This document shows positions 3,490 to 35,596 of a DNA stretch of 37,392 nt, piece by piece. The translations under genes and the position numbers were made by a program. How positions within the stretch are numbered: position 1 is the stretch's first letter; each line of letters starts with the position of its first letter. Below the pieces are notes generated by a model. It was not told where the DNA came from and did no database searches. It was given only the letters and a program-made list of their open reading frames with translations. Source of the stretch: an uncultured Alphaproteobacteria bacterium (GTDB taxonomy: Bacteria > Pseudomonadota > Alphaproteobacteria > Rhizobiales > Ancalomicrobiaceae); assembly GCA_937864925.1 (NCBI GenBank), contig CALMFH010000173.1:1-37392 (forward strand), given 5' to 3'.

Positions 3490-3840
3490 GTGCCGGTCGA
3501 ACTTCGACCTTCCCAGGCGCTGAAACTGTGGCACGACGTGACGCTCGACCTCGTCCGCGACGGCGAGACCGATCTCACGGCGCGGCAGATGACGATCCTG
3601 CTCACCGTCTACCTCGAACCGCCGCCGCACACGGTGCGCGGCCTCGCCACCAAGCTCGGCGTCACCAAGCCGGCGATCACCCGTGCCCTCGACACCATGG
3701 GCGAACGCGGCCTGGTCGATCGTCGCCGCGACGAGCGCGACCGCCGCAACGTCCTGATCCAGCGCACCGTCGCCGGGGCATTGTGGGTGGAAAAGCTCGG
3801 CGACGACATCGTGCTGCGGGCGAAACATCTGCCGCGCTGA
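3490..3840 (+). CDS. MarR-family winged-helix regulator
   Basis: A compact 116-residue protein with a winged helix-turn-helix: LTARQMTILLTVYLEPPPHT, then VRGLATKLGVTKPAITRALD (recognition helix) and the wing GLVDRRRDERDRRNV. It lacks the long dimerisation helices of full MarR proteins at its C terminus and resembles short MarR-type regulators of alphaproteobacteria. The start is a GTG at 3490 preceded by AAAAGGGA; the longer frame from 3283 runs through the intergenic repeat and is not protein-like. No obvious target or ligand can be read from the neighbours. Confidence 0.75.
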   Translation: MPVELRPSQALKLWHDVTLDLVRDGETDLTARQMTILLTVYLEPPPHTVRGLATKLGVTKPAITRALDTMGERGLVDRRRDERDRRNVLIQRTVAGALWVEKLGDDIVLRAKHLPR

Positions 3841-16303: not shown

Positions 16304-16400
16304 TGGCGGAAGAGAGTGGGAGTCGAACCCACCAGAGACCGTCGCGCGGCCTCTCCCGGATTTGAAGTCCGGACGCCCCACCGGGGAACGCTTCTCTTCC
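16304..16400 (-). tRNA. selC: tRNA-Sec (anticodon UCA)
   Basis: A 97-nt selenocysteine tRNA with encoded CCA. Its acceptor arm GGAAGAGA pairs with TCTCTTCC (8 bp, longer than usual). The anticodon loop CTTCAAA carries TCA at 16365-16363, flanked by the stem GTCCGGA/TCCGG as in E. coli selC. A long variable arm (GAGAGGCCG...CGGTCTC) and the T-arm GGTTCGACTCCC follow. It lies downstream of selB on the same strand, after the structured repeat. The hairpin CCACGCC-GGCGTGG (16288-16306 region) directly after the 3' end could stop transcription. Confidence 0.97.
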
Positions 16401-16473
16401 CTGAGCCCACCGGCCGGCCGGTGGGACGGATCCGGCATCCCCGCGCGGTCCGCCGGACATCGTCTCATACCGA

Positions 16474-22699: not shown

Positions 22700-25600
22700 T
22701 CAGACCGTCGGACCGGCGAGCGGTTCGATGTTGACCAGGAACGCCTTGAATTCCGGCGTCTCGATGTTGGCGTCACCGACGAAGGGCGTCAGCGCATTGG
22801 GGCCGAAGCCCTTCTTGGCCGCGCCGGTGAAGCCCCAGTGCAGCGGGATGCCGACGACGTGGACGGGCTTGCCGTCGCAGATCAGCGGCTTGATCCGCTT
22901 GGTCACCACCGCCTTGGCCTTGACCGAGCCACGCTTCGACCACACCCGGACCCGGCCGCCGTTGACGATCCCCTTCTCCTTGGCGAGCTCGTGCGAGATC
23001 TCGACGAAGAACTCCGGTTGCAGCGCCGCGTTGACCGAGACGTGCTTGGTCCAGAAGTGGAAGTGCTCGGTCAGTCGGTAGGAGGTCGCCGCGTAGGGGA
23101 ACTCCGCCGAGGTGCCGAACTGCTCGATGTCGCCCTTGAACAGGCGCGCCACCGGGTTGCCGCGGATCTTCGGTGCCACGACGTTGGTCACCGGCGATTC
23201 GAACGGCTCGTAGTGCACCGGGAACGGGCCGTCGCGCATCATTCCCCTCGTGAACAGGCGCGAGACGCCTTCCGGGTTCATGATGAACGGCATCACCGTG
23301 TCCGGCTTGGCCGTCGGGGCGATGTCGGGCACGTCGTAGCCGGCCCACTTCGATCCGTCCCACTCGATCAACTTGCGCGACGGATCCCAGGCCTTGCCCT
23401 GGACGTCGGCCGAGGCGCGGTTGTAGAGGATGCGGCGATTGACCGGCCAGGCGAACGACCACTTGAGATAGGCGCCGGTGTCGTCCGGGTCGGAGGTGTC
23501 GCGACGGGCCATGTTGTTGCCCGCCTCGTTGAAGCAGCCGGAGTAGATCCAGCAGCCGCAGGCCGTCTTGCCGTCGTCGCGCAGGGCGGCGAAGGAGACC
23601 ACCTGCTTGCCCTTGGCGAGCGCCACCTTGGTCGGATCGGTCGCGTCGGGAATGTCCTCGACGGCATAGCCGTTGAGTTCCTTGGCGAGTTCCTCCGGCG
23701 TCGGGTCGGCGGGGTTCTTGTAGGGCCAGTGCAGGTTGAGGATCGGGTCGGCGAAGGCGCCGCCTTCCTTGGCGTAGAGCGCCTTCAGACGCTGATGGAT
23801 CTGCGCCATGATCCAGATGTCGGTCTTCGCCTCGCCCGGCGGGGTGCCGGCCGCCCAGTGCCACTGGATCCAGCGGCCCGAGTTGGTCAGCGAGCCCTCG
23901 TCCTCGGCGAAGCAGGTGGTCGGCAACTGGATCACTTCCGTCTGGATCTTCGACGGATCGACGTCGTTGTACTCGCCGTGGTTCTCCCAGAACCGCGCCG
24001 TCTCCGTCTCCAGCGGATCCATGACGACGAGGAACTTGAGCTTGGAGAGCGCGGCGATCGACTTCGCCTTGTTGGGGAACGACTGCAGCGGGTTGAAGCC
24101 CTGGCAGACGTAGCCGTTCATCTTGCCCTGGTGCATCAGCTCGAAGGCCCGCAGGATGTCGTAGGCGGGGACGTCGAGCTTGGGCAGCCAGTCGTAGGCG
24201 AAGTCGTTCTCCGGCGTCGCCGCTGCTCCCCACATCGCCTTCTGGAACGAGACGAAGAACTTCTTGTAGTTCTGCCAGTAGCTCATCTGGCCGGGCCGCA
24301 GCGGCTTGAAGCCGCGGCTCGACATGTAGGTGGCGAAGTCCTTCTCACGCTCGGCCGGGATGTTGAGATAGCCCGGCAGCAGGTTGGACATCAGACCGAT
24401 GTCGGTCAGGCCCTGGATGTTCGAGTGACCACGCAGCGCGTTCATGCCGCCGCCACGGACGCCGATGTTGCCGAGGATCAGCTGCAACATCGCCATGCCG
24501 CGGATGTTCTGCGACCCCTTGGAGTGCTGGGTCCAGCCGAGCGCATACATCGACGTCATGGTCTTCTGCGGCGACGAGGTCTCGGCGATCATCTCGCACA
24601 CCTTCAGGAACTTGTCCTTGGGCGTGCCACAGATGCGCTCGACCATTTCCGGCGTGTAGGTCGCGACGTGGGCCTTGAGGAGATTCCAGACGCAGCGCGG
24701 ATGCTGGAGCGTCTCGTCCACCACGGCGAAGCCGTCGGGGCCGATCTCGTAGTCCCAGGACGAGCGATCGTAGTCGCGCTTGCCCTCGTCGTAGCCGGTG
24801 AACAGGCCGTCGGCGTAACCGAAGCCCTCCTTGACGATGTAGGAGGCGTTGGTGAACGCCTTGGTGTACTCCCACTGCACCTTGTCCTTGGAGATGCAGT
24901 AGTTGATCACGCCCATCAGGAAGGCGATGTCGGAGCCCTGACGGATCGGGGCATAGAGGTCGGCGACCGAGGCCGACCGGGTGAAGCGCGGATCGACGAC
25001 GATGAGCTTGGCGCCCCGGTTGGCCTTGGCCTCCGTGACCCACTTGAATCCGCAAGGGTGTGCTTCGGCGGCATTGCCGCCCATGATCACGACGAGATCC
25101 GTGTTCCGAATGTCGGTCCACGAGTTGGTCATCGCACCACGGCCGAAAGTCGGGCCCAAACTGGACACCGTGGGGCCGTGTCAGACACGCGCCTGGTTGT
25201 CGAACACCAGGATGCCGGCGCTTCGCACCACCTTGTAGGTGGCGAAGGCGGTCTCGTTCGTCGTGGCGGACGCGGCCAGGAACCCGGTCGTGGTCCAGCG
25301 GTTGACGGTGACGCCGTCCTTGTTCTTGGCGACGAAGTTGGCGTCGCGGTCCGCCTTCATGTGGCGGACGACGCGATCGAGGGCCTCGTCCCAGGAGATG
25401 CGTTCGAACTTGTCGGATCCGGCCTTGCGGATGCGTGGGGACTGGAGGCGGGTCTCGGCGCGCACCATGTCGAGCAACGCCGCGCCCTTCGGGCAGAGCG
25501 TGCCGCGGTTGGTGGGATGGTCCGGATCGCCTTCGACGTGGATGATCTCGGCCTTCTCGCCCTTGGCCAAGCTGCCCTTGGAATAGAGCAGGATACCGCA

Positions 25601-25780
25601 GGCGACCGAACAGTAGGTGCAGGTGTTGCGGGTCTCGGTGGTGGCGGCGAGCTTGAACGGCCGGATGGCCGCCGCATGCGCCTCTTCCACCTCGCCGAAG
25701 CCGAGCGCGCCGAGGCTCGTTCCGGCCAATCCCGCCCCCGCCGTGCGCAGAAATGCGCGCCGCGAGAGGTCCATGTTCAT
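22700..25780 (-). CDS. fdoG: Formate dehydrogenase alpha subunit, selenoprotein (in-frame UGA = Sec200)
   Basis: A 1026-residue molybdenum/tungsten bis-MGD enzyme that oxidises formate to CO2 in the periplasm. It starts at ATG 25780 after AGGAGGAGG with a twin-arginine signal ([13 protein letters not shown]). A [4Fe-4S] cluster is bound by C54, C57, C61 and C96 ([16 protein letters not shown]). The reading frame is interrupted only by TGA at 25183-25181, in [28 protein letters not shown]. This is exactly the position of Sec in E. coli FdnG (VUHG), and the frame continues without shift. The whole Sec machinery is encoded next door. A conventional annotation would split it in two. Fdo/Fdn-type naming is by similarity. 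Confidence 0.95.
25138..25183 (-). promoter_or_regulatory. Sec codon and candidate bacterial SECIS hairpin in fdoG
   Basis: The UGA (25183-25181) is followed at once by CACGGCC (25180-25174), which pairs perfectly with GGCCGTG (25144-25138). Inner CCCA/TGGG pairing narrows the loop. Bacterial SECIS elements are hairpins of this size directly after the UGA and are read by the SelB C-terminal domain. Confidence 0.75.
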
Positions 25781-25873
25781 CTCGACCCTCCTCCTTGCAT
25801 CGTCGTCGTTTCCTCGTCTCGTCGACCCTTGGCCGGGTCTCTCTCCGGATCGCGCCGATTCCTCTGGGCAGAA

Positions 25874-25920
25874 TTCCGGATTATCCGGAAAGGTTATAAG
25901 TCGGGGATTCGACCTGTCAA
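25874..25920 (-). promoter_or_regulatory. Promoter of the fdo-sel operon with palindrome over the start site
   Basis: On the minus strand TTGACA (25920-25915), a 16-nt spacer and TATAAC (25898-25893) are near-perfect sigma-70 boxes. The predicted start near 25886 falls inside the almost perfect palindrome TTCCGGATTATCCGGAA (25874-25890), a likely repressor operator. The leader to the ATG would be about 105 nt. The regulator is not identified. Confidence 0.7.
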
Positions 25921-26369
25921 ATCCAACAGCCGCTCGTGGCAAGATCTTCTGACCAGATTTTGCTCGATCGGAGCGTGGCCTCGAGGAAAGAACCACTTTC
26001 TGCATGTATATATTCGTATATTAGAATGGTTCGATGCAGCATTTTTCTCGGAACACGCATGAATTCCTACTGCGCTGCACCATGGTGGGGCGCGGGCCGC
26101 CGACTGCTCGGGAATGACGTGGCGGTGATCGACCGGGGCGGCGAAGTGTGATTGACCGCGGCGTGGCGACCGTTGCAGATTGCGCGGGTGATCACGTTCG
26201 ACGCTCCCGAGGTTCGGGGCACGACCATCGCTTGCCGGTCGCCGCGGCTCGGATCCCCGAGGCCGCCGGACGGGAACGTCCGCCGATCACATCCCCTCCC
26301 CGAGACGCCGTCGACCCCCGCCTCCCGCGGAACCGGTGCGTTCGCCCCCACCCGACCGAGGATGCCGCC
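25921..26369. other. Intergenic region between the fdo operon promoter and selD
   Basis: About 450 nt without a credible gene. Positions 25990-26060 are unusually AT-rich for this genome and hold TATATT and TAGAAT boxes (26017-26027) that could be the -10 of a rightward selD promoter, without a good -35. Nothing else was recognised; an open frame through 26148-26369 joins selD but is not protein-like. Confidence 0.4.
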
Positions 26370-27425
26370 ATGAACGCGCCCACCGTCCGCCTGACCTCGC
26401 TCGCCCACGGCGGCGGCTGCGGCTGCAAACTGGCGCCGTCGGTGCTCAGGCAGTTGCTCGCCGGACAACCGACGGGTGGGCCGTTCGAGCGGCTGCTGGT
26501 CGGCACCGAGACCGGCGACGACGCAGCGGTGTGGCAGGTCGACGACGCGACCTGCGTCATCGCCACCACCGACTTCTTCATGCCGATGGTCGACGACCCA
26601 CGCGATTTCGGCCGGATCGCCGCCACCAACGCCATCTCCGACGTCTACGCCATGGGCGGACGGCCGATCATGGCGCTGGCCATCCTCGGCATGCCGATCG
26701 ACAAGATCCCGGCCGAGATGGTGCGCGACATCCTCGCCGGTGGAGCCGAAGTCTGCGGGCGGGCCGGCATCCCGGTGGCCGGCGGTCACTCGATCGACAG
26801 TCCCGAGCCGATCTACGGTCTGGCGGTGATCGGCACCTGCCGGCCGGAGGAGGTGCGGCGCAATTCGAGCGCGCGGCCCGGCGACGCGCTGATCCTGACC
26901 AAGGGGATCGGCGTCGGCATCTATTCCTCGGCGATCAAGAAGGGGAAGCTCGACGGCGAGGGTTACGCCGAGATGATCGCCACCACGACGCTGCTCAACC
27001 GCATCGGTGCCGACCTCGCTCGCGACGCCGACGTCCACGCGATCACCGACGTCACCGGCTTCGGACTCGCCGGCCACGGGCTGGAGATCGCCCGCGGCTC
27101 CGGCCTCGGCGTGGTCGTCGACATCGCGGCGGTGCCGTTGCTCGCCCGCGCCGAGGAACTGGCGGCGGCCGGCTGTGTCACCGGGGCGTCGCATCGCAAT
27201 TGGGCGAGCTACGGCGAGGAGGTCGACCTGCCGGCCGATCTCGACGAGGTGCGGCGCCACCTCCTCACCGATCCGCAGACCTCCGGCGGCCTGCTCGTCG
27301 CCTGCGCGCCCGAGCGGGCCGAGGAGATCGCCGCGACGATCCGTGCCGCCGGCTATCCCGCGGCCCGGTGCATCGGCCGGGCGGAGGCGGGACCGCCGCG
27401 CCTACGCTTCACCCACGGCGGATGA
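26370..27425 (+). CDS. selD: Selenide, water dikinase (selenophosphate synthetase)
   Basis: A 351-residue enzyme that makes selenophosphate from selenide and ATP, the selenium donor for SelA. The active-site loop is [16 protein letters not shown] with Cys17, the same number as in E. coli SelD, and K20; it is a Cys form, not a selenoprotein. [25 protein letters not shown] and [18 protein letters not shown] are conserved ATP-binding motifs. ATG 26370 was chosen from the family N terminus. It diverges from the fdo-sel operon and completes the Sec pathway. Confidence 0.96.
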
Positions 27426-29294: not shown

Positions 29295-30152
29295 TCACAC
29301 CTCGATCTCCATCAGATCATGGGCGAGGACGATGCGGCCGGAGAAGTCGCGGGCGACGTCTTCGGCGATCTCGGCGCGGGCGCGGGCGTCGGCCTCGTCC
29401 AGGCGCGGGCGATGATGGGTGAGGACGAGGGTCTTCACTCCGGCTTTCGCGGCGATCCTGCCCACCGTGTCGGCGCAGGCGAGGGTGTGTTCGGCGAGCC
29501 GCTCGAAATGGGCGCCGCGGATCTCGGAGCGGGCGAGGAAGCACACCTGGACGAGCACGTCGGCGCCGGTCGCCAGCCGATCGAGGCCGTCGCAGGCGAC
29601 GGTGTCGCCGGAGATCGCGACCACCTTGCCCTCCGCCTCGAGCCGGTAGCCGAGGCAGGTCCAGCGCGCCAGGAAGGCCGGCGGCAGGCCGAGCCCGTCG
29701 CCGTGGCGGACGACCTCGGCGGAGACTTTCCAGCGACCGGTATCGACGACCGGCCCGGCGACGACGTCGTGGACCTCGATCGGTTTCCAGCCGCCGAAGG
29801 TCGGCTCGCCGAGCGAGCGCCAGGCGATGTCCTTGTCGTAGACCCGACCGGTGAGCGCCTCGACGATGCGGCCGGTCTCCGGCGGGCCGTAGATGGACAG
29901 CGGGACCTTTCGTCCGGCGATCCACGAGTTGAGCATGACGTCGTAGAGGTCGCCGATGTGGTCGAAGTGGTGATGGGTGACGAAGACCGGGCCGATGCGG
30001 TCGAGCGGCACACCGGCGCGCACCAGCTGCACCATGACGCCGCGTCCGGCGTCGAACAGGAGGTGGTCGTCGCCGACGGTGACCAGAGTCGCCGCCGCCA
30101 TCCGGTTCGGGTCCGGTCGCGGTCCGCCGGTTCCGAGGAGGGTGATCTTCAC
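29295..30152 (-). CDS. MBL-fold metallo-hydrolase (RNase Z-like)
   Basis: A 285-residue metallo-beta-lactamase-fold hydrolase. The zinc motif FVTHHHFDHIGDLYDV (HxHxDH) is present, with further ligands in AISGDTVACDGL and LVLTHHRPRL. MKITLLGTGGPRPDPNRMA at the N terminus is typical of the RNase Z/arylsulfatase-like branch. Substrate unknown. It lies 70 nt downstream of the NikR-like gene on the same strand and may be the last gene of the nickel operon by read-through. Confidence 0.85.
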   Translation of the reverse strand: MKITLLGTGGPRPDPNRMAAATLVTVGDDHLLFDAGRGVMVQLVRAGVPLDRIGPVFVTHHHFDHIGDLYDVMLNSWIAGRKVPLSIYGPPETGRIVEALTGRVYDKDIAWRSLGEPTFGGWKPIEVHDVVAGPVVDTGRWKVSAEVVRHGDGLGLPPAFLARWTCLGYRLEAEGKVVAISGDTVACDGLDRLATGADVLVQVCFLARSEIRGAHFERLAEHTLACADTVGRIAAKAGVKTLVLTHHRPRLDEADARARAEIAEDVARDFSGRIVLAHDLMEIEV

Positions 30153-30222
30153 GGGGTCGGCTCCTGGTTGCGCCGTGGGTCGTCCACGGGGCGGGTACGG
30201 TGGTGCGGAGCGCGTCGCGCGG

Positions 30223-30636
30223 TCAATCCGCCGCGGCGCTCACCGGCACCACCACGGCGCGGCCATGGCGGACGCCGCGTTCGGCCTGGACCGCCTCGAC
30301 GAAGGCGCGCACCGCCGGGGTCGGCCCCTCGAGCAGTGCCACCTCCAGCACTTCGCCGCCGGGAAGCGGCCGTTGCAGGCGGGTGGCGCCGAGACCGGGC
30401 CGATCGCGGAAGGCGGCGGCGAGCCGTTTCGACAGCTCGCGTGTCTCGGGATCGAAGACGTAGGTGAGGGTGGCGACGCAGTCGCGCGTCTCACCCACCG
30501 CCTCGATGCCGTGGACGAGGCCGGCGCGGGCGAGATCGCGCACCGCCTCGGAACGGTTGGAATAGCCACGCGATTCCATGAAGCGGTCGATCTCCGCCAT
30601 CAGGTCGTCGTCGAAGGTCAGAGTGACGCGCTGCAA
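30223..30636 (-). CDS. nikR: NikR-like ribbon-helix-helix regulator lacking the nickel ligands
   Basis: A 137-residue NikR homologue. The N-terminal ribbon-helix-helix (MQRVTLTFDDDLMAEIDRFM, then GYSNRSEAVRDLARAGL) is intact, as is the ACT-like C-terminal end (AFVEAVQAERGVRHGRAVVV). The four high-affinity Ni ligands of E. coli NikR (H76, H87, H89, C95) align by the conserved LE(I/V)A(V/L)L(K/E)G strand to R77, Q88, P90 and V96, so the metal site is gone. It lies downstream of an ECF-type metal transporter operon, which it presumably represses. What it senses is unknown. The symbol marks homology, not function. Confidence 0.85.
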   Translation of the reverse strand: MQRVTLTFDDDLMAEIDRFMESRGYSNRSEAVRDLARAGLVHGIEAVGETRDCVATLTYVFDPETRELSKRLAAAFRDRPGLGATRLQRPLPGGEVLEVALLEGPTPAVRAFVEAVQAERGVRHGRAVVVPVSAAAD

Positions 30637-30747
30637 GGGGCATTCTCCGGGCGGTGCGGGCGGGTGCGCCCGATCCTACGCCGGTCGGCGAAGGAGAGAA
30701 GTCCGGATGTGGCTCGGCCGTCGGACGAAGACCGGCCGTACCGCGTC

Positions 30748-31488
30748 TCACCTCTCCGGCCCGTCGTGGACATGGCCGTGATCGGGATCGAGGCCGTGGA
30801 TGTGGACATGGTCGTGGACGTGGACGTGGCGGTGCAGGCTCGCCGGGGCGAGGCGGCCGTCCTTCAGCAGCAGAGCGCGGGTGGCGAGCTTCTCGAGGAA
30901 CAACCGGTCGTGAGAGACGATCACCATCGCCACGTCGAGGGCGGCGAGGATCTCGACGAGACGGTCGCGGTGGACGTCGTCGAGGGCGTTGGTCGGCTCG
31001 TCGAGCAGCAGCGCCTGCGGCCCCATGGCGAGCACCCCGGCGAGACTCACCAACCGTTTCTCGCCCCCCGACAAGCGGTGGGTGACGCGCATCGCCAGGC
31101 CCGCCAGACCGAGCCGGTCGAGGGTGGCGAGCGCCCGGGCCTTCGCCGTCGCCGGATCGAGACCGAGATTGAGCGGGCCGAAGGCGACGTCCTCGATCAC
31201 CGTCGGGGAGAACAGCTGGTCGTCGGGGTCCTGGAAGAGGAAGCCGGCGCGGGCTCGCACCTCGTGGAAATCCGCCTCGCCGCGGCGCTCGCGGCCGAAG
31301 GCGACGAGGCGGCCGGCGGTCGGACGCTCGAGCCCGACGAGAGTGCGCAGCAGGGTCGTCTTACCCGCCCCGTTGGCCCCGACCAGCGCCAGCCGCTCGC
31401 CGGCGGCGAGCGTCATCGACACCGCGGTGAGGACCGGGCGGCCGGCGCGGCCGACGGCGACGTCGAGGAGGTCGAAGAGGGCGGTCAC
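30748..31488 (-). CDS. cbiO: Nickel/cobalt ECF transporter ATPase (CbiO/NikO)
   Basis: A 246-residue ABC ATPase that powers ECF-type metal uptake. Walker A is [15 protein letters not shown], the signature [14 protein letters not shown], Walker [14 protein letters not shown], and the Q-loop [11 protein letters not shown]. The tail [14 protein letters not shown]...HGHVHD contains ten histidines and probably binds nickel or cobalt. The start is a GTG at 31488 that overlaps the cbiQ stop (GTGA); the long open frame beyond it is antisense noise. Confidence 0.95.
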
Positions 31489-32249
31489 GTCAGCCGATCC
31501 GTCACAACGAGTGCGAGGAGGACGAGCCCCAGTCCGGCGGCGAAGCGGCGATCCACCGGACCGAAGCAGGTGTCGTCGACGAGGGCGAAACGTCCTGCGA
31601 AGGCGCGGCAGCGCATCGCCTCGCCGACCCGTTCGGCGCGCTCGACGGCATCGACGACCAGCCGGCCGACGAGATGGGCGAGGGTGCGCAGGGTGTGGAG
31701 CGAGGTGCGACGGCGGAAGGCGCGGGCGCGCAGCGTGTCGAGACGGCGCGCCGCCGCCTCGCGCGAAAGGGCGACGAAACGGGCGGTGAAAAGCAGCAGA
31801 TGGACGAGTTTGCGCGGCAGACCGAGCCGGGCGAGGGCATGGCCGAGGCGCACCGGCTCGAGCCCGCCGAGGAGTCCGAGGATCACCGCCGCCGCGACGT
31901 TGACGCGCAAGAGGATCATCACGGCACGGTCGATACCGGGTTGGGACAGGGTGAGCGGGCCGACGACGAGCCACGCCGGTCCGGGCACGGTGAGCGGCAG
32001 TAGAGCCACCAGGGCGAGGAGGAAGCCCTCGACGTGGACGAGCCGGCGGCCGAGGTCGGCGGCGGTGGTACCGGCGGAGAGGGCGAGCAGGACGGCGAAG
32101 GGCAGCGCGGCGGCGAGGACGAGGGGCGAGCGCAGCGCCACCACCACCGCCACCGCCACCGTCGCGGCGAGGATCCGGGTGCGCGGATCGAGTCGATCGA
32201 GCCGTGGTCGCGGGGTGAGATCGGCGGCAGGAAGGAAGGTCTCGCTCAT
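31485..32249 (-). CDS. cbiQ: Nickel/cobalt ECF transporter transmembrane protein (CbiQ/NikQ)
   Basis: A 254-residue membrane protein that couples the ATPase to the substrate component. Several transmembrane helices are clear ([62 protein letters not shown]). The cytoplasmic coupling helices with A-R-A motifs appear as [10 protein letters not shown] and [13 protein letters not shown] 32249 overlaps the preceding gene's stop (ATGA). Confidence 0.92.
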
Positions 32250-32881
32250 GTGATCTCGCCTTTCTCGCCCCTCTCGGCGCGCCGGCGCGCCGTCGCCCAC
32301 AGGGCGGCGCCGGCCAGCCCGGCGATCATGCCGACACCGCCCATCACGTCGTTGAAGCGCAGCCGGCTCTCGGCCTGATCGTAGGCCTCCATCAGCGGCC
32401 GCAGCCGCCGCTCCAGCGCCGCGTCGACGCGGGCCTCGACCAGTCGGGCGAGGGCGTCGCGATCGATCGGCGCCGCGACCGGCATCTCGGCCGACAGCAC
32501 GACCGGTGTCGGTTCGACCGGCGGCGGCGGCGGCGCGGCGGCGTTCGCCCCGGCGAGACGGTCGGCGGTGATGCCGGCGGTGGCACGGTGACCGTCGCCG
32601 GTGTCGATCGACACGACGTAGTCGGCCGCCACCGGCGGGCGCCAGCGGAAGCCGCCGTGCTCGTCGGTACGACCTCGATGAACCGTGTGACCCGCCGCAT
32701 CTTCGACGACGACCTCGACCCCGTCCGGACGACCGCCACCGACGAAGAAGCCGTAGCCGGTGATCTCGCCGACCTCGCTGGCGACGAAGAGCTTGAGGCG
32801 ATGCGCCGCCGCAGGTCCGGCGGTCCCGGCGACGAAGACGGCGGCGAGCAGGGCCGCGGCGCGGCGGCGCGACGTGATCAT
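32246..32881 (-). CDS. NikL/CbiL-like periplasmic accessory protein of the metal transporter
   Basis: A 211-residue protein with a signal peptide ([23 protein letters not shown]) leaving an N-terminal His-Arg-Leu start on the mature chain. A small beta domain ([20 protein letters not shown]) is followed by a proline-rich linker, a helical region and a C-terminal transmembrane helix ([18 protein letters not shown]). This is the layout of NikL/CbiL-type additional components that replace CbiN in Ni transporters. It overlaps cbiQ and cbiM by ATGA. Confidence 0.8.
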
Positions 32882-33501
32882 CCGAGCACCTCCCTGGGCG
32901 GGGCGGCGAGGATCTCGGGCTTCACCTGCTTCAGATAGGCGACGACGACCCCGGTGACGATCGCCTCGACCACCGCGAGCGGCACATAGGTGAGGGCGAT
33001 CACCGTCAGGCTCGGCACGTAGTCGGTGGAAGAGAGGGCGAGGGCGAGGGAAACGCAGCCCGCCGTGGCGATGACCGCCGCAGCGGCGACCGCAGCGGCG
33101 ACGAAGCCGGCGACGACACCACCGGTGCGGGCGAGGAGCGGCGCGGCGAACCCACCGAGGATCACACCGGGGAAGGCGATGTCGACGACGTCGACGCCGA
33201 GCGAGGTGAGGCCGCCGAAGCCGAAGAGTACCGCCTGCAGCAGCAGGCCGACGAAGATCGCCGGGATCGCCGCGAGCCCGAGGACGATGCCGATCAGCCC
33301 GGAGAGGAGCAGGTGGACACTCGACGGGCCGATCGGCACGGCGACGAGCGAGACGACGAAGAAGACCGCGGCGAGGATCGCGGTCTTCGGAATGTCGCGC
33401 TCATCGAGCCTGGAAACGGCGAGAGCGAGGCCGCCGACGGCGAGGAGACCGCCGCCGAGCAGCACCGGAAGCGACAGGATGCCGTCGGGGATGTGGGCCA
33501 T
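32878..33501 (-). CDS. cbiM: Nickel/cobalt ECF transporter substrate component (CbiM/NikM)
   Basis: A 207-residue membrane protein that captures the metal ion. The N-terminal MAHIPDGILSLPVLLGG carries the metal-binding His just after the start; in most CbiM/NikM proteins it is residue 2, here residue 3. Conserved IGPSSVHLLLSGLIGIVLG contains the other His ligand. The start is ATG 33501 rather than the ATG at 33507, because GAGGAG lies six bases before it. The gene is 10 nt downstream of the DUF4198 gene. Confidence 0.92.
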   Translation of the reverse strand: MAHIPDGILSLPVLLGGGLLAVGGLALAVSRLDERDIPKTAILAAVFFVVSLVAVPIGPSSVHLLLSGLIGIVLGLAAIPAIFVGLLLQAVLFGFGGLTSLGVDVVDIAFPGVILGGFAAPLLARTGGVVAGFVAAAVAAAAVIATAGCVSLALALSSTDYVPSLTVIALTYVPLAVVEAIVTGVVVAYLKQVKPEILAAPPREVLG

Positions 33502-33511
33502 CGCCATCTCC

Positions 33512-34288
33512 TCACCGCGACGCAGCCGCCGGGCCGCCCATGTCGGTCGCCTTGACCCAGACGAGACCACCGAGTTCGGTCGGCGCCGGGCGACCGTCGG
33601 GTCCGGGCGCCTCGGGTCCGTCGACCAGGGCGGCGAAGCCCCACCACCCGGCGCGCGGCATGGCATAGGCGAAGGTGCCGTTCTGGTCGGCTCGGATCGC
33701 CTGGGTGACGAAGGCCTCGTTCGGTGCCGTCACCGAGCCGTCGTTCAGCCATTCGACCTCGATCTCGGCGAAGGGCACCGGCTCGCCATCGCGTCTGACG
33801 ACGCCGCGGAAGAGGTTACCGGTCCACAGGCCGGTCGGCCGCGCCAGCGGCTCGATCTCGATCGGCAGACCGACGGGCTTGGCCCAACCCTCGCCCGAGG
33901 CGAAGGCGTCGACGACGACCTTGGCGTAGTGGACGATCCATTTCTTCTCGGCCGGCTCCCAATAGGGTCGCGGTTCGACGAAGAACACGGCGGCGCCGGG
34001 CTCGACGAGTTTCGTCGCCAGCGTCCAGGCCGTCCTGCCGTCGATGCGGTTCTCGACCAGCGCGCCGGTCAGATCCGTGGTGCGACCGCGATGAACCATG
34101 CCGACCCGTTTCGGCTTGGTCATCTCCATCACCGGGCCGCGTTCCATCGGATGGGTGAAGAGGAGATCGAGCCGCACCTCACCACCTTCCGGCAGCACGT
34201 CGGCGGACGGGACGATCTCCTGGAAATGGGCGGCTGCGGGCGGCGCGGTGAGGGCGGCGAGAAACGTGGCGATCGCGGACCGGCGCAT
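33512..34288 (-). CDS. nikK: DUF4198 nickel uptake accessory protein (NikK-like)
   Basis: A 258-residue exported protein of the DUF4198/NikK family, found in front of NikMLQO-type transporters. The signal peptide is RRSAIATFLAALTAPPAAAH and the mature protein begins with HFQEIVPSADVLPEGGE, with the N-terminal His typical of metal-binding forms. FTHPMERGPVMEM and a C-terminal carboxypeptidase-like beta domain (FRADQNGTFAYAMPRAGWWG type) follow. The start ATG 34288 precedes the signal peptide. First gene of the leftward nickel operon. Confidence 0.85.
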   Translation of the reverse strand: MRRSAIATFLAALTAPPAAAHFQEIVPSADVLPEGGEVRLDLLFTHPMERGPVMEMTKPKRVGMVHRGRTTDLTGALVENRIDGRTAWTLATKLVEPGAAVFFVEPRPYWEPAEKKWIVHYAKVVVDAFASGEGWAKPVGLPIEIEPLARPTGLWTGNLFRGVVRRDGEPVPFAEIEVEWLNDGSVTAPNEAFVTQAIRADQNGTFAYAMPRAGWWGFAALVDGPEAPGPDGRPAPTELGGLVWVKATDMGGPAAASR

Positions 34289-34591
34289 GTCGAACCCCTC
34301 GGAGACGGCGACGATCAACACGATAGGATGATTTTCGAAAAATTGCATACTCGAAAATGCGGAACCGATGCCTCGTTTTCGGGCGACGTCGGCCGGGCTT
34401 CGTCGGCGGGAGACGGCCGCAGGCCGGGCAGAGGACGGCGCCACGACGTGTCGACCGGCCGCGAGCCGGGTCTCACCGCTTCGCCGTCACCGCGGGCACG
34501 CCGCCGAAGGTGGGCCATGGCGGGCGCGGGGCCGCCCGCGACGGCACGGCAGGGCGATACGACGGGACGGGCGGCGGCGCCGACCTCGCAC
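34289..34591 (-). promoter_or_regulatory. Upstream region of the nickel operon with a candidate operator
   Basis: ATTTTCGA (34331-34338) and TCGAAAAT (34351-34358) are perfect 8-nt inverted arms with a 12-nt centre. They contain the 10-nt palindrome TTTTCGAAAA (34332-34341) in an AT-rich stretch, the only one in this gap, about 45-70 nt before nikK. This does not fit the GTATGA-N16-TCATAC operator of E. coli NikR. It is a good candidate operator for the altered NikR or another repressor. The remainder, toward 34591, is GC-rich and shows nothing clear. Confidence 0.5.
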
Positions 34592-35596
34592 TCAGCCGTA
34601 GCGCTCGACGTGGAGCCATTGGGAGGGGCTGTAACGATCGCCGGCGGCGAACCCCGGCGGCAGCAGGCGTTCGAGTTCGGCGAGACGCTCCGCCGTCAGC
34701 TCGATCGCCGCGGCGTGCGCGTCGTCCTCGAGGTGGGCGGCGGTGCGCGTTCCCGGGATGGGGACGATGTGGCGCCCCTTGGCCAGCGTCCAGGCGACGG
34801 CGAGTGCGGCGGGCGAGACGCCCCAGGCAGCCGCGAGATCGAGATAGCTCCGGAGGTGCGCGCGGTTGCGCTGCCAGTTGACCCCTTCGAAGCGCGGGTT
34901 GGCACGGCGGAAGTCGCTCGGTTCGAGCGTCCGCGGATCGTCGAGGAGACCGCCGAAGAAGCCGCGGCCGAGCGGTGAGAAGGCGACGAAGAGCGCCCCG
35001 AGCTCGGCGCACGCGTCGATCAGGCCGAACTCGGGGGTGCGCGTCCACAGCGAATATTCCGACTGGACGGCGGCGATCGGGTGGACGCTCACGGCGCGGC
35101 GCAGGGTGTCGGGCGAGACCTCGGAGAGGCCGATGGCGCCGATGCGGCCGGCCTTCACCTCCTCGGCCAGGGCCGCGATCGTCTCCTCGATCGGCACGGC
35201 GGGGTCGTAGCGGTGGACGTAGTAGAGATCGACATGGTCGGTGCGCAGGCGCTGCAGCGAGGCGGTGAGCGCCTCGCGCATGTGGCTCGCGCTGTTGTCG
35301 ACCACCCGCTTGCCGTCCGCCGACTTGGTGATGGCGAATTTGGTGGCGAGGATGACGCGTTCGCGGCTGCCGGGATGGTCGGCGAGGAAGCGGCCGATGA
35401 ATTCTTCGGAGACACCCTCGCCGTAGATGTTGGCGGTGTCCCAGAAGCGAACGCCGATGTCGACGGCGCGGGCGAGGGTGGCGCGGCTGGTCGCCTCGTC
35501 GGTCGGCCCGTACATGCCGCCGAAGCTCATGCAGCCGAGGCCGACGGGCGAGAGACCGCGGGCGCGGTCGGCGAAGAAGCGGTCGACGAGGGTCAT
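34592..35596 (-). CDS. Aldo/keto reductase
   Basis: A 334-residue NADPH-dependent aldo/keto reductase of the YhdN/Tas-like branch. The catalytic tetrad is visible: Asp and Tyr in VRFWDTANIYGEG, Lys in VILATKFAI, His in VDLYYVHRYD. SEYSLWTRTPEFGL and IVPIPGTRTAAHLEDD are conserved cofactor and substrate regions. The start ATG 35596 (MTLVDRFFADRARGLSPVGLG) is supported by homology; the upstream frame is not. Substrate unknown. Confidence 0.9.
   Translation of the reverse strand: MTLVDRFFADRARGLSPVGLGCMSFGGMYGPTDEATSRATLARAVDIGVRFWDTANIYGEGVSEEFIGRFLADHPGSRERVILATKFAITKSADGKRVVDNSASHMREALTASLQRLRTDHVDLYYVHRYDPAVPIEETIAALAEEVKAGRIGAIGLSEVSPDTLRRAVSVHPIAAVQSEYSLWTRTPEFGLIDACAELGALFVAFSPLGRGFFGGLLDDPRTLEPSDFRRANPRFEGVNWQRNRAHLRSYLDLAAAWGVSPAALAVAWTLAKGRHIVPIPGTRTAAHLEDDAHAAAIELTAERLAELERLLPPGFAAGDRYSPSQWLHVERYG

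Follow-up and report, generated by a model that had tools for sequence, protein, structure and literature searches.

Ligand-less homologues of the nickel regulator NikR in Ancalomicrobiaceae and their association with nickel transporters

A NikR homologue at the end of a nikKMLQO operon

The window, that is, the whole stretch of 37,392 nucleotides that was analysed (contig CALMFH010000173.1 of assembly GCA_937864925.1, from an uncultured alphaproteobacterium of the family Ancalomicrobiaceae), carries six genes read in one direction in the order nikK, nikM, nikL, nikQ, nikO and nikR (Table 1). Pfam and NCBIfam domain matches identify an ECF transporter of the NikKMLQO type, in line with the nickel/cobalt transporter that had been recognized earlier from the letters alone (hereinafter, the sequence-only reading). 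The nikR homologue is the last gene, separated by 111 bases from the end of nikO at 30748 and followed, after another 70 bases, by a gene for a metallo-beta-lactamase-fold protein. Prediction over 30150-34600 gave neither a sigma-70 promoter nor a terminator, a result of little weight in a genome of this kind. The window also contains a selenocysteine set, in which the formate dehydrogenase-like gene is read in two open reading frames around the SECIS element.

Table 1. Features of the window and their positions
Feature	Positions	Strand	Details
nikR homologue without nickel ligands (class I)	30223..30636	-	TTG start at 30636, 137 aa
nikO, CbiO-type ATPase, His-rich C-terminal tail	30748..31491	-	Pfam and NCBIfam matches
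nikQ, CbiQ-type T component	31485..32300	-	Pfam and NCBIfam matches
nikL, NikL family nickel/cobalt ECF subunit	32246..32881	-	NF058648
nikM, CbiM-type substrate subunit	32878..33507	-	Pfam and NCBIfam matches
nikK (DUF4198), first gene of the operon	33512..34288	-	ATG at 34288
Candidate NikR-type operator GTATGC-N16-TCCTAT	34323..34350	-	34 bases before the nikK ATG
tRNA-Sec	16308-16401	-	selenocysteine set
SECIS_3 match	25128-25186	-	selenocysteine set
SelD-like gene	26370-27425	+	selenocysteine set
Formate dehydrogenase-like gene	22700-26005	-	selenocysteine set

The predicted fold is that of NikR and the known nickel site is gone

NikR is a textbook example of a ribbon-helix-helix repressor that is ordered by its metal, and its sensor domain is ACT-like. 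Both domains are present in the window protein, namely, the N-terminal ribbon-helix-helix domain (RHH_1 of Pfam, 27.2 bits against a cut-off of 20.5) and the C-terminal ACT-like domain (NikR_C, 48.5 bits against 22). The protein also scores 131.8 with the NCBIfam NikR model NF002815, above its cut-off of 83, and 121.8 with TIGR02793 (nikR), below its cut-off of 175.45. The alignment with E. coli NikR (1q5v) spans residues 1 to 131 (E 1.5e-22) and places R77, Q88, P90 and V96 of the window protein at the positions of H76, H87, H89 and C95, exactly the replacement that the sequence-only reading had claimed; these four residues (E. coli numbers) are what we take to be the square-planar nickel site of E. 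coli NikR.

The structural model of the window protein, built from an alignment of 49 sequences (pLDDT 88.0, pTM 0.63) as a monomer without metal, in which the inter-subunit nickel site cannot appear, has E. coli NikR as its best structural match (2hza, Z 15.3, rmsd 6.2 over 131). The sensor domain of the model fits E. coli 1q5y with Z 15.1 and rmsd 1.4 over 84 residues, and ACT domains with Z of 9 to 10.5. Thus, the domain matches, the ligand alignment and the model comparison indicate that the fold is kept and the nickel site is gone; the retention of the DNA-binding domain and the C-terminal fold had likewise been proposed from the letters alone. The window protein is the sole NikR homologue found in its genome (one match at E<=10); a second, canonical NikR was looked for and not found.

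Ligand loss is shared across Ancalomicrobiaceae

A NikR_C match is present in 10 of the 15 Ancalomicrobiaceae genomes and in none of the remaining five. Seven of the ten NikR homologues, including the window protein, lack the ligands (hereinafter class I), and three retain the complete set (HHHC, after the residues in the ligand columns). The class I genomes include those of Siculibacillus, Siculibacillus lacustris SA-279 and Pinisolibacter aquiterrae B13, all from genera of this family. The ligand columns of class I read RQPV in five proteins, QAPR in one and LQPF in one, and all four of H76, H87, H89 and C95 are missing from each of the seven. Seven relatives from outside the family are five HHHC proteins, one HQHC and one RHHT; no relatives were found on viral contigs.

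The change extends beyond the ligands themselves. In the 132 HHHC sequences (E. coli included), three flanking histidines are nearly invariant (H62, 100%; H78, 95%; H79, 91%). All seven class I proteins instead have Pro for H62 and Arg for H78, with Pro, Arg or Ala in place of H79; P63, R79 and P90 are new class-wide residues around the old nickel site. Since the flanking histidines are gone as well, and the same loss is found in six more genomes of the family, the loss goes beyond chance. All seven class I genes are open reading frames.

The sequence-only reading had named equivalent ligands supplied by other residues as the finding that would speak against it; no equivalent set is visible in the alignment of class I. 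The search for alternative ligands among invariant His, Cys, Asp and Glu gave no His at all among the seven proteins; C53, the sole invariant Cys, is just as common among the HHHC sequences (78%), and most of the acidic residues are shared with HHHC proteins. These include E30 and D34, present in all seven class I proteins and invariant in the HHHC set too. E30 is part of the potassium (low-affinity) site of NikR. D34 is assigned to this site in PMC7055735. Class I thus resembles E. coli NikR (1q5v, 2hza, 2hzv) in domain composition, predicted fold, the R3/T5/T7 strand and E30/D34 and differs from it in lacking H76, H87, H89, C95, H62, H78 and H79.

Nickel uptake and possible replacement sensors in class I genomes

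The nikR gene directly follows nikO in G000, G002, G010 and G013, is not next to the transporter genes in G004 or G008, and in G001 is found on one contig, with nikK and its site on another. In five of the seven class I genomes nikM adjoins nikK; the remaining two nikK genes are at contig ends. Nickel matters to these bacteria because all seven genomes yield strong matches to the [NiFe]-hydrogenase large subunit and six of the seven encode urease alpha (absent from G000). G000 also has a separate CbiM, accompanied by a cobalamin riboswitch, which points to cobalt uptake being handled elsewhere; nikKMLQO is therefore probably a nickel transporter.

An RcnR-like replacement sensor in G000 was considered and rejected: the sole CsoR-family match adjoins (by eye) a formaldehyde dehydrogenase-like gene and is more likely FrmR than RcnR. 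Among the CsoR-family matches of the class I genomes, inspected by eye, only G001 has an RcnR/RcnA-like pair, and no other known nickel sensor was noticed. The His-rich tail of nikO (11 His in the last 60 residues), present also in G002, G004, G010 and G013, is a possible nickel control point within the transporter. As a class I-specific replacement sensor it was ruled out, given that such a tail is found in the HHHC genome G005 and in Roseomonas and is nearly absent in G008. Separately, a gene for a His-rich protein is convergent with nikR in G011 (L026:9501-9782), and a similar one is perhaps present, less surely, in G004 (L021:9492-9809, opposite strand).

A candidate operator upstream of nikK

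A 28-bp NikR-like site lies upstream of nikK in all seven class I genomes. The left half (GTATGC, ATATGA or GTATGA), the N16 spacing and the span are kept throughout, whereas the right half, canonically TCATAC, is TCCTAT in five genomes, CCTTAT in G008 and TCTTAT in G004. When compared with GTATGA-N16-TCATAC, the class I regions match 9-10 of the 12 half-site bases; a score of 9 is attained in 47 of 2100 dinucleotide-shuffled versions of the regions. The pattern RTATGMN16TCCTAT has one match in the window and none in 100 shuffles. The pattern RTATGMN16TCHTAY has a single match in the 4.15-Mb genome of the window (34350-34323) and nine across eight genomes, seven of these upstream of nikK and two elsewhere; the same pattern read backwards, as a control, gives three matches, in three of the eight genomes. 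The strict pattern is present in six of the seven class I genomes and fails in G008.

The N13 register scores nearly the same as N16 (66 versus 65) because the right part of the site is TCATCCTAT, common to five of the seven class I sites, where the HHHC genome G005 has TCATCATAC. The enterobacterial NikR consensus, as given in PMC545781, is GTATGAT-N13/14-ATCATAC and hence has the same 27-28 bp span. The changed right half may serve as a -10 element. The palindrome near 34331 to which the sequence-only reading had drawn attention, ATTTTCGA-N12-TCGAAAAT, does exist, with 16 of 16 positions matching in the window, but it is the overlapping NikR-type site that the relatives share instead; the palindrome matches at 13, 11, 9, 10, 11 and 9 positions in the other class I genomes, counted with no control.

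As in E. coli, the candidate site lies upstream of a nickel importer and covers 28 bp; unlike in E. coli, its right half is changed, and the target is the ECF-type nikKMLQO rather than nikABCDE. The canonical alphaproteobacterial systems of G005, G043 and G046 have the same type of transporter and a NikR-type site upstream of nikK, and differ from class I in their NikR, which is HHHC in G005 and G043 and HQHC in G046. In G005, from the same family, nikR does not adjoin nikK, and the operator, at the same place upstream of nikK, is the perfect palindrome GTATGA-N16-TCATAC; in G043 and G046, nikR is divergent from nikK. Apart from the sites at nikK, an 11-of-12 NikR-like site in G001 (L019:3564-3591) directly precedes a cobalamin riboswitch (3592-3811) upstream of a second transporter set.

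Selective pressure on the two domains

The dN/dS ratios were estimated by the Nei-Gojobori method for pairs with moderate dS; the pairs overlap, as do the sets compared below, and the values are therefore given without p-values. In class I, the median is 0.43 for the sensor domain and 0.16 for the DNA-binding domain (20 of 21 pairs), compared with 0.49 and 0.38 for HHHC proteins (1723 pairs) and 0.24 and 0.21 for class II, a second ligand-less group described below (29 pairs). Measured as protein distance, the sensor domain diverges 2.13 times as much as the DNA-binding domain in class I and 0.94 times as much in class II pairs; across 62 overlapping sets of seven HHHC proteins, this ratio has a median of 1.05 and a maximum of 1.99. 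Taken together, the distance ratios and the dN/dS values indicate that class I guards the DNA-binding half, whereas class II guards both halves. A plainly relaxed sensor domain in class I was rejected as a description because dN/dS of the sensor is not above that of HHHC pairs, the increase being confined to the sensor measured relative to the DNA-binding domain. Given the faster divergence of the sensor, constitutive action or partial decay appears likelier for class I than a new specific sensor.

Proposed nickel-independent regulation and its alternatives

The sequence-only reading listed another signal, another metal site and constitutive action as options for a regulator of this kind. The list was a fair one; what it lacked was detail, in particular, the family-wide state of the ligand loss and the faster divergence of the sensor domain. 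From the comparison of sequences, class I NikR probably controls nickel uptake, but not through the known mode of nickel sensing. As the leading explanation, put forward tentatively and with substantial doubt, we propose that class I is a nickel-blind, DNA-competent NikR that exerts nickel-independent autoregulation of nikKMLQO. Under this proposal, a NikR paralogue or orthologue would no longer sense nickel at the known site but would retain the ribbon-helix-helix domain and the tetramer-forming ACT-like domain, with the potassium site docking one onto the other; the presumed tetramer would bind at the nikK promoter, to the 28-bp operator derived from that of NikR, and the product of nikR, encoded last in the operon, would limit the output of the operon through nickel-independent negative autoregulation. 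A published path to nickel-independent DNA binding exists: in PMC7949043 and PMC9860126, apo HpNikR is described as sampling DNA-competent states and as a weak DNA binder in the nickel-free form, with the binding of the apo protein tightened by several single mutations. Autoregulation cannot be general in class I, considering that in G004 and G008 nikR lies off the transporter and no site with at least 9 of 12 bases was found in the nikR locus, and that in G001 nikR and nikK are on different contigs.

With the sensor domain diverging about twice as fast as the DNA-binding domain, regulatory decay becomes a serious rival, although we consider it rather unlikely. Nickel control would in this case no longer be needed, and the protein and its site would be drifting remnants, perhaps with weak DNA binding; the divergence ratio above the HHHC maximum, the altered right half of the operator, the separation of nikR and the transporter genes in G004 and G008, and the five family genomes without any NikR match are all compatible with such drift. 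Decay is at odds, however, with the sensor dN/dS, which is not raised relative to HHHC pairs, with the DNA-binding domain being under tighter constraint than in HHHC proteins, with seven open genes that share the new residues P63, R79 and P90, and with the occurrence of TCATCCTAT in five sites.

Sensing of a metal elsewhere in the protein, through E30/D34, through C53 together with acidic residues or through a weak site for high nickel or cobalt, is unlikely. The invariance of E30, D34 and C53 in class I could point in this direction, but these residues are as common in HHHC proteins, and no His is invariant in class I. The importance of nickel to these bacteria, as judged from hydrogenase and urease, and the apparent lack of another known nickel sensor among the CsoR-family matches outside G001 would fit a metal-responsive protein, as would the binding of excess nickel to the low-affinity site of E. 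coli NikR with a Kd of about 29 nM (PMC7055735). A small-molecule ligand sensed by the ACT-like domain in place of nickel is improbable: the fit of the model to ACT domains and the newly invariant P63, R79 and P90 around the old site would agree with it, but the former is expected of any NikR sensor domain, no ligand or neighbouring enzyme points to a particular molecule, and the sensor is the faster-diverging half.

Class II and other ligand variants

The order-wide search covered 397 genomes, 114 of them with a match, and the scan of genome contigs 78 loci. The combined set, which includes E. coli NikR and the window protein and in which identical sequences were merged, is non-random, the contig scan having been limited to class-I-like peptides; its 175 rows comprise 132 HHHC, 7 class I, 22 class II, 8 partly changed (HQHC 4, HQRC 2, HQYC 1, QRPC 1) and 6 xHHT sequences. 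In a phylum-level sample of 398 genomes, 48 had a match, and of the 38 loci that were read, 29 encode HHHC proteins and 5 xHFS proteins, the other four being a class II protein (LSPA), a YHHT protein, an NLCR protein and a fragment. Departures from HHHC are thus a recurrent feature of NikR proteins. Among the minor variants, the xHHT group (L010, L217-L221), defined by NikR_C matches, has Q at position 30, with GTATTACGA palindromes near some of the loci; the xHFS group of NikR_C proteins (L325-L329) occurs in other Alphaproteobacteria, and L331, a lone NikR_C protein, has NLCR in the ligand columns. In L048, L054 and L082 (Methylocapsa, Beijerinckiaceae), H87 is replaced by Gln and, in two of the three, H89 by Arg, with H76 and C95 kept; these proteins are possible intermediates of ligand loss.

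The 22 distinct sequences of class II share S87 and P89; position 76 is occupied by Leu, His or Gln and position 95 by Ser or Ala, and H79, H92, H123 and histidines of the tail are invariant. Like class I, it has no nickel ligand set, has Pro in place of H89 and adjoins nickel transporters, with NikK, NikM, NikL or NikQ homologues in 15 of the 22 short loci; some of the remaining loci adjoin, by eye, a NikA-like binding-protein gene. Unlike class I, it forms a separate clade, keeps the histidines listed above, is equally constrained in its sensor and DNA-binding domains, and is found near the canonical operator: a perfect GTATGA-N16-TCATAC lies within 2.5 kb of 16 of the 22 genes, and a site of at least 10 is present at 18 of the 22, compared with 1 of 22 in the shifted control. 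For HHHC loci, the respective numbers are 40 and 74 of 131, with 2 of 131 in the control. In Roseomonas marmotae, the class II gene (WP_336512714.1) is plasmid-borne, divergent from nikKMLQO and adjacent to urease genes; the protein is annotated as nickel-responsive, and its own best site reaches only 10 of 12. When the class II profile was run against 385 genomes sampled across the bacterial class (E<=1e-30), it retrieved HHHC proteins only, from 13 genomes, so class II appears to be rare outside the order.

Given the canonical operator near most of the genes and the invariant histidines, the metal site of class II may have moved. The His-rich tail was rejected as a novelty of this class, since several HHHC proteins end likewise (13 of 13 read were HHHC); the tail is probably inherited, and only its invariance is particular. 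In the trees, class I and class II fall on separate sides of branches, among HHHC proteins, with SH-aLRT support of 99 for class I and 100 for class II from all columns, and of 90 and 100, respectively, once the ligand and flanking columns are removed. The trees thus speak against a single origin of the two classes, but on the reduced columns a joint clade is compatible with the AU test (p 0.175); independent ligand loss is the favoured scenario.

Implications

We are aware of no report of ligand-less NikR homologues, of either class, in the open full-text literature, although an earlier mention is possible. The broader view that NikR has shed its nickel site more than once and kept its job at nickel transporters, with class I becoming an autoregulator blind to nickel, whose asymmetric operator changed along with it, and class II keeping the canonical operator unchanged and rebuilding metal sensing from H79, H92, H123 and the C-terminal HxH...HxH tail, is a possibility that we regard as doubtful in this complete form. 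The label of nickel-responsive NikR nevertheless reaches proteins without the ligands, as in the case of the window protein, which passes NF002815, and of the class II NikR from Roseomonas marmotae. Natural homologues that have the operator and the transporter but not the metal site are ready-made tests of the contribution of the nickel site; with the two classes, it can be tested whether ligand loss is compensated by DNA binding of the apo protein and whether sensing has been relocated within the fold.
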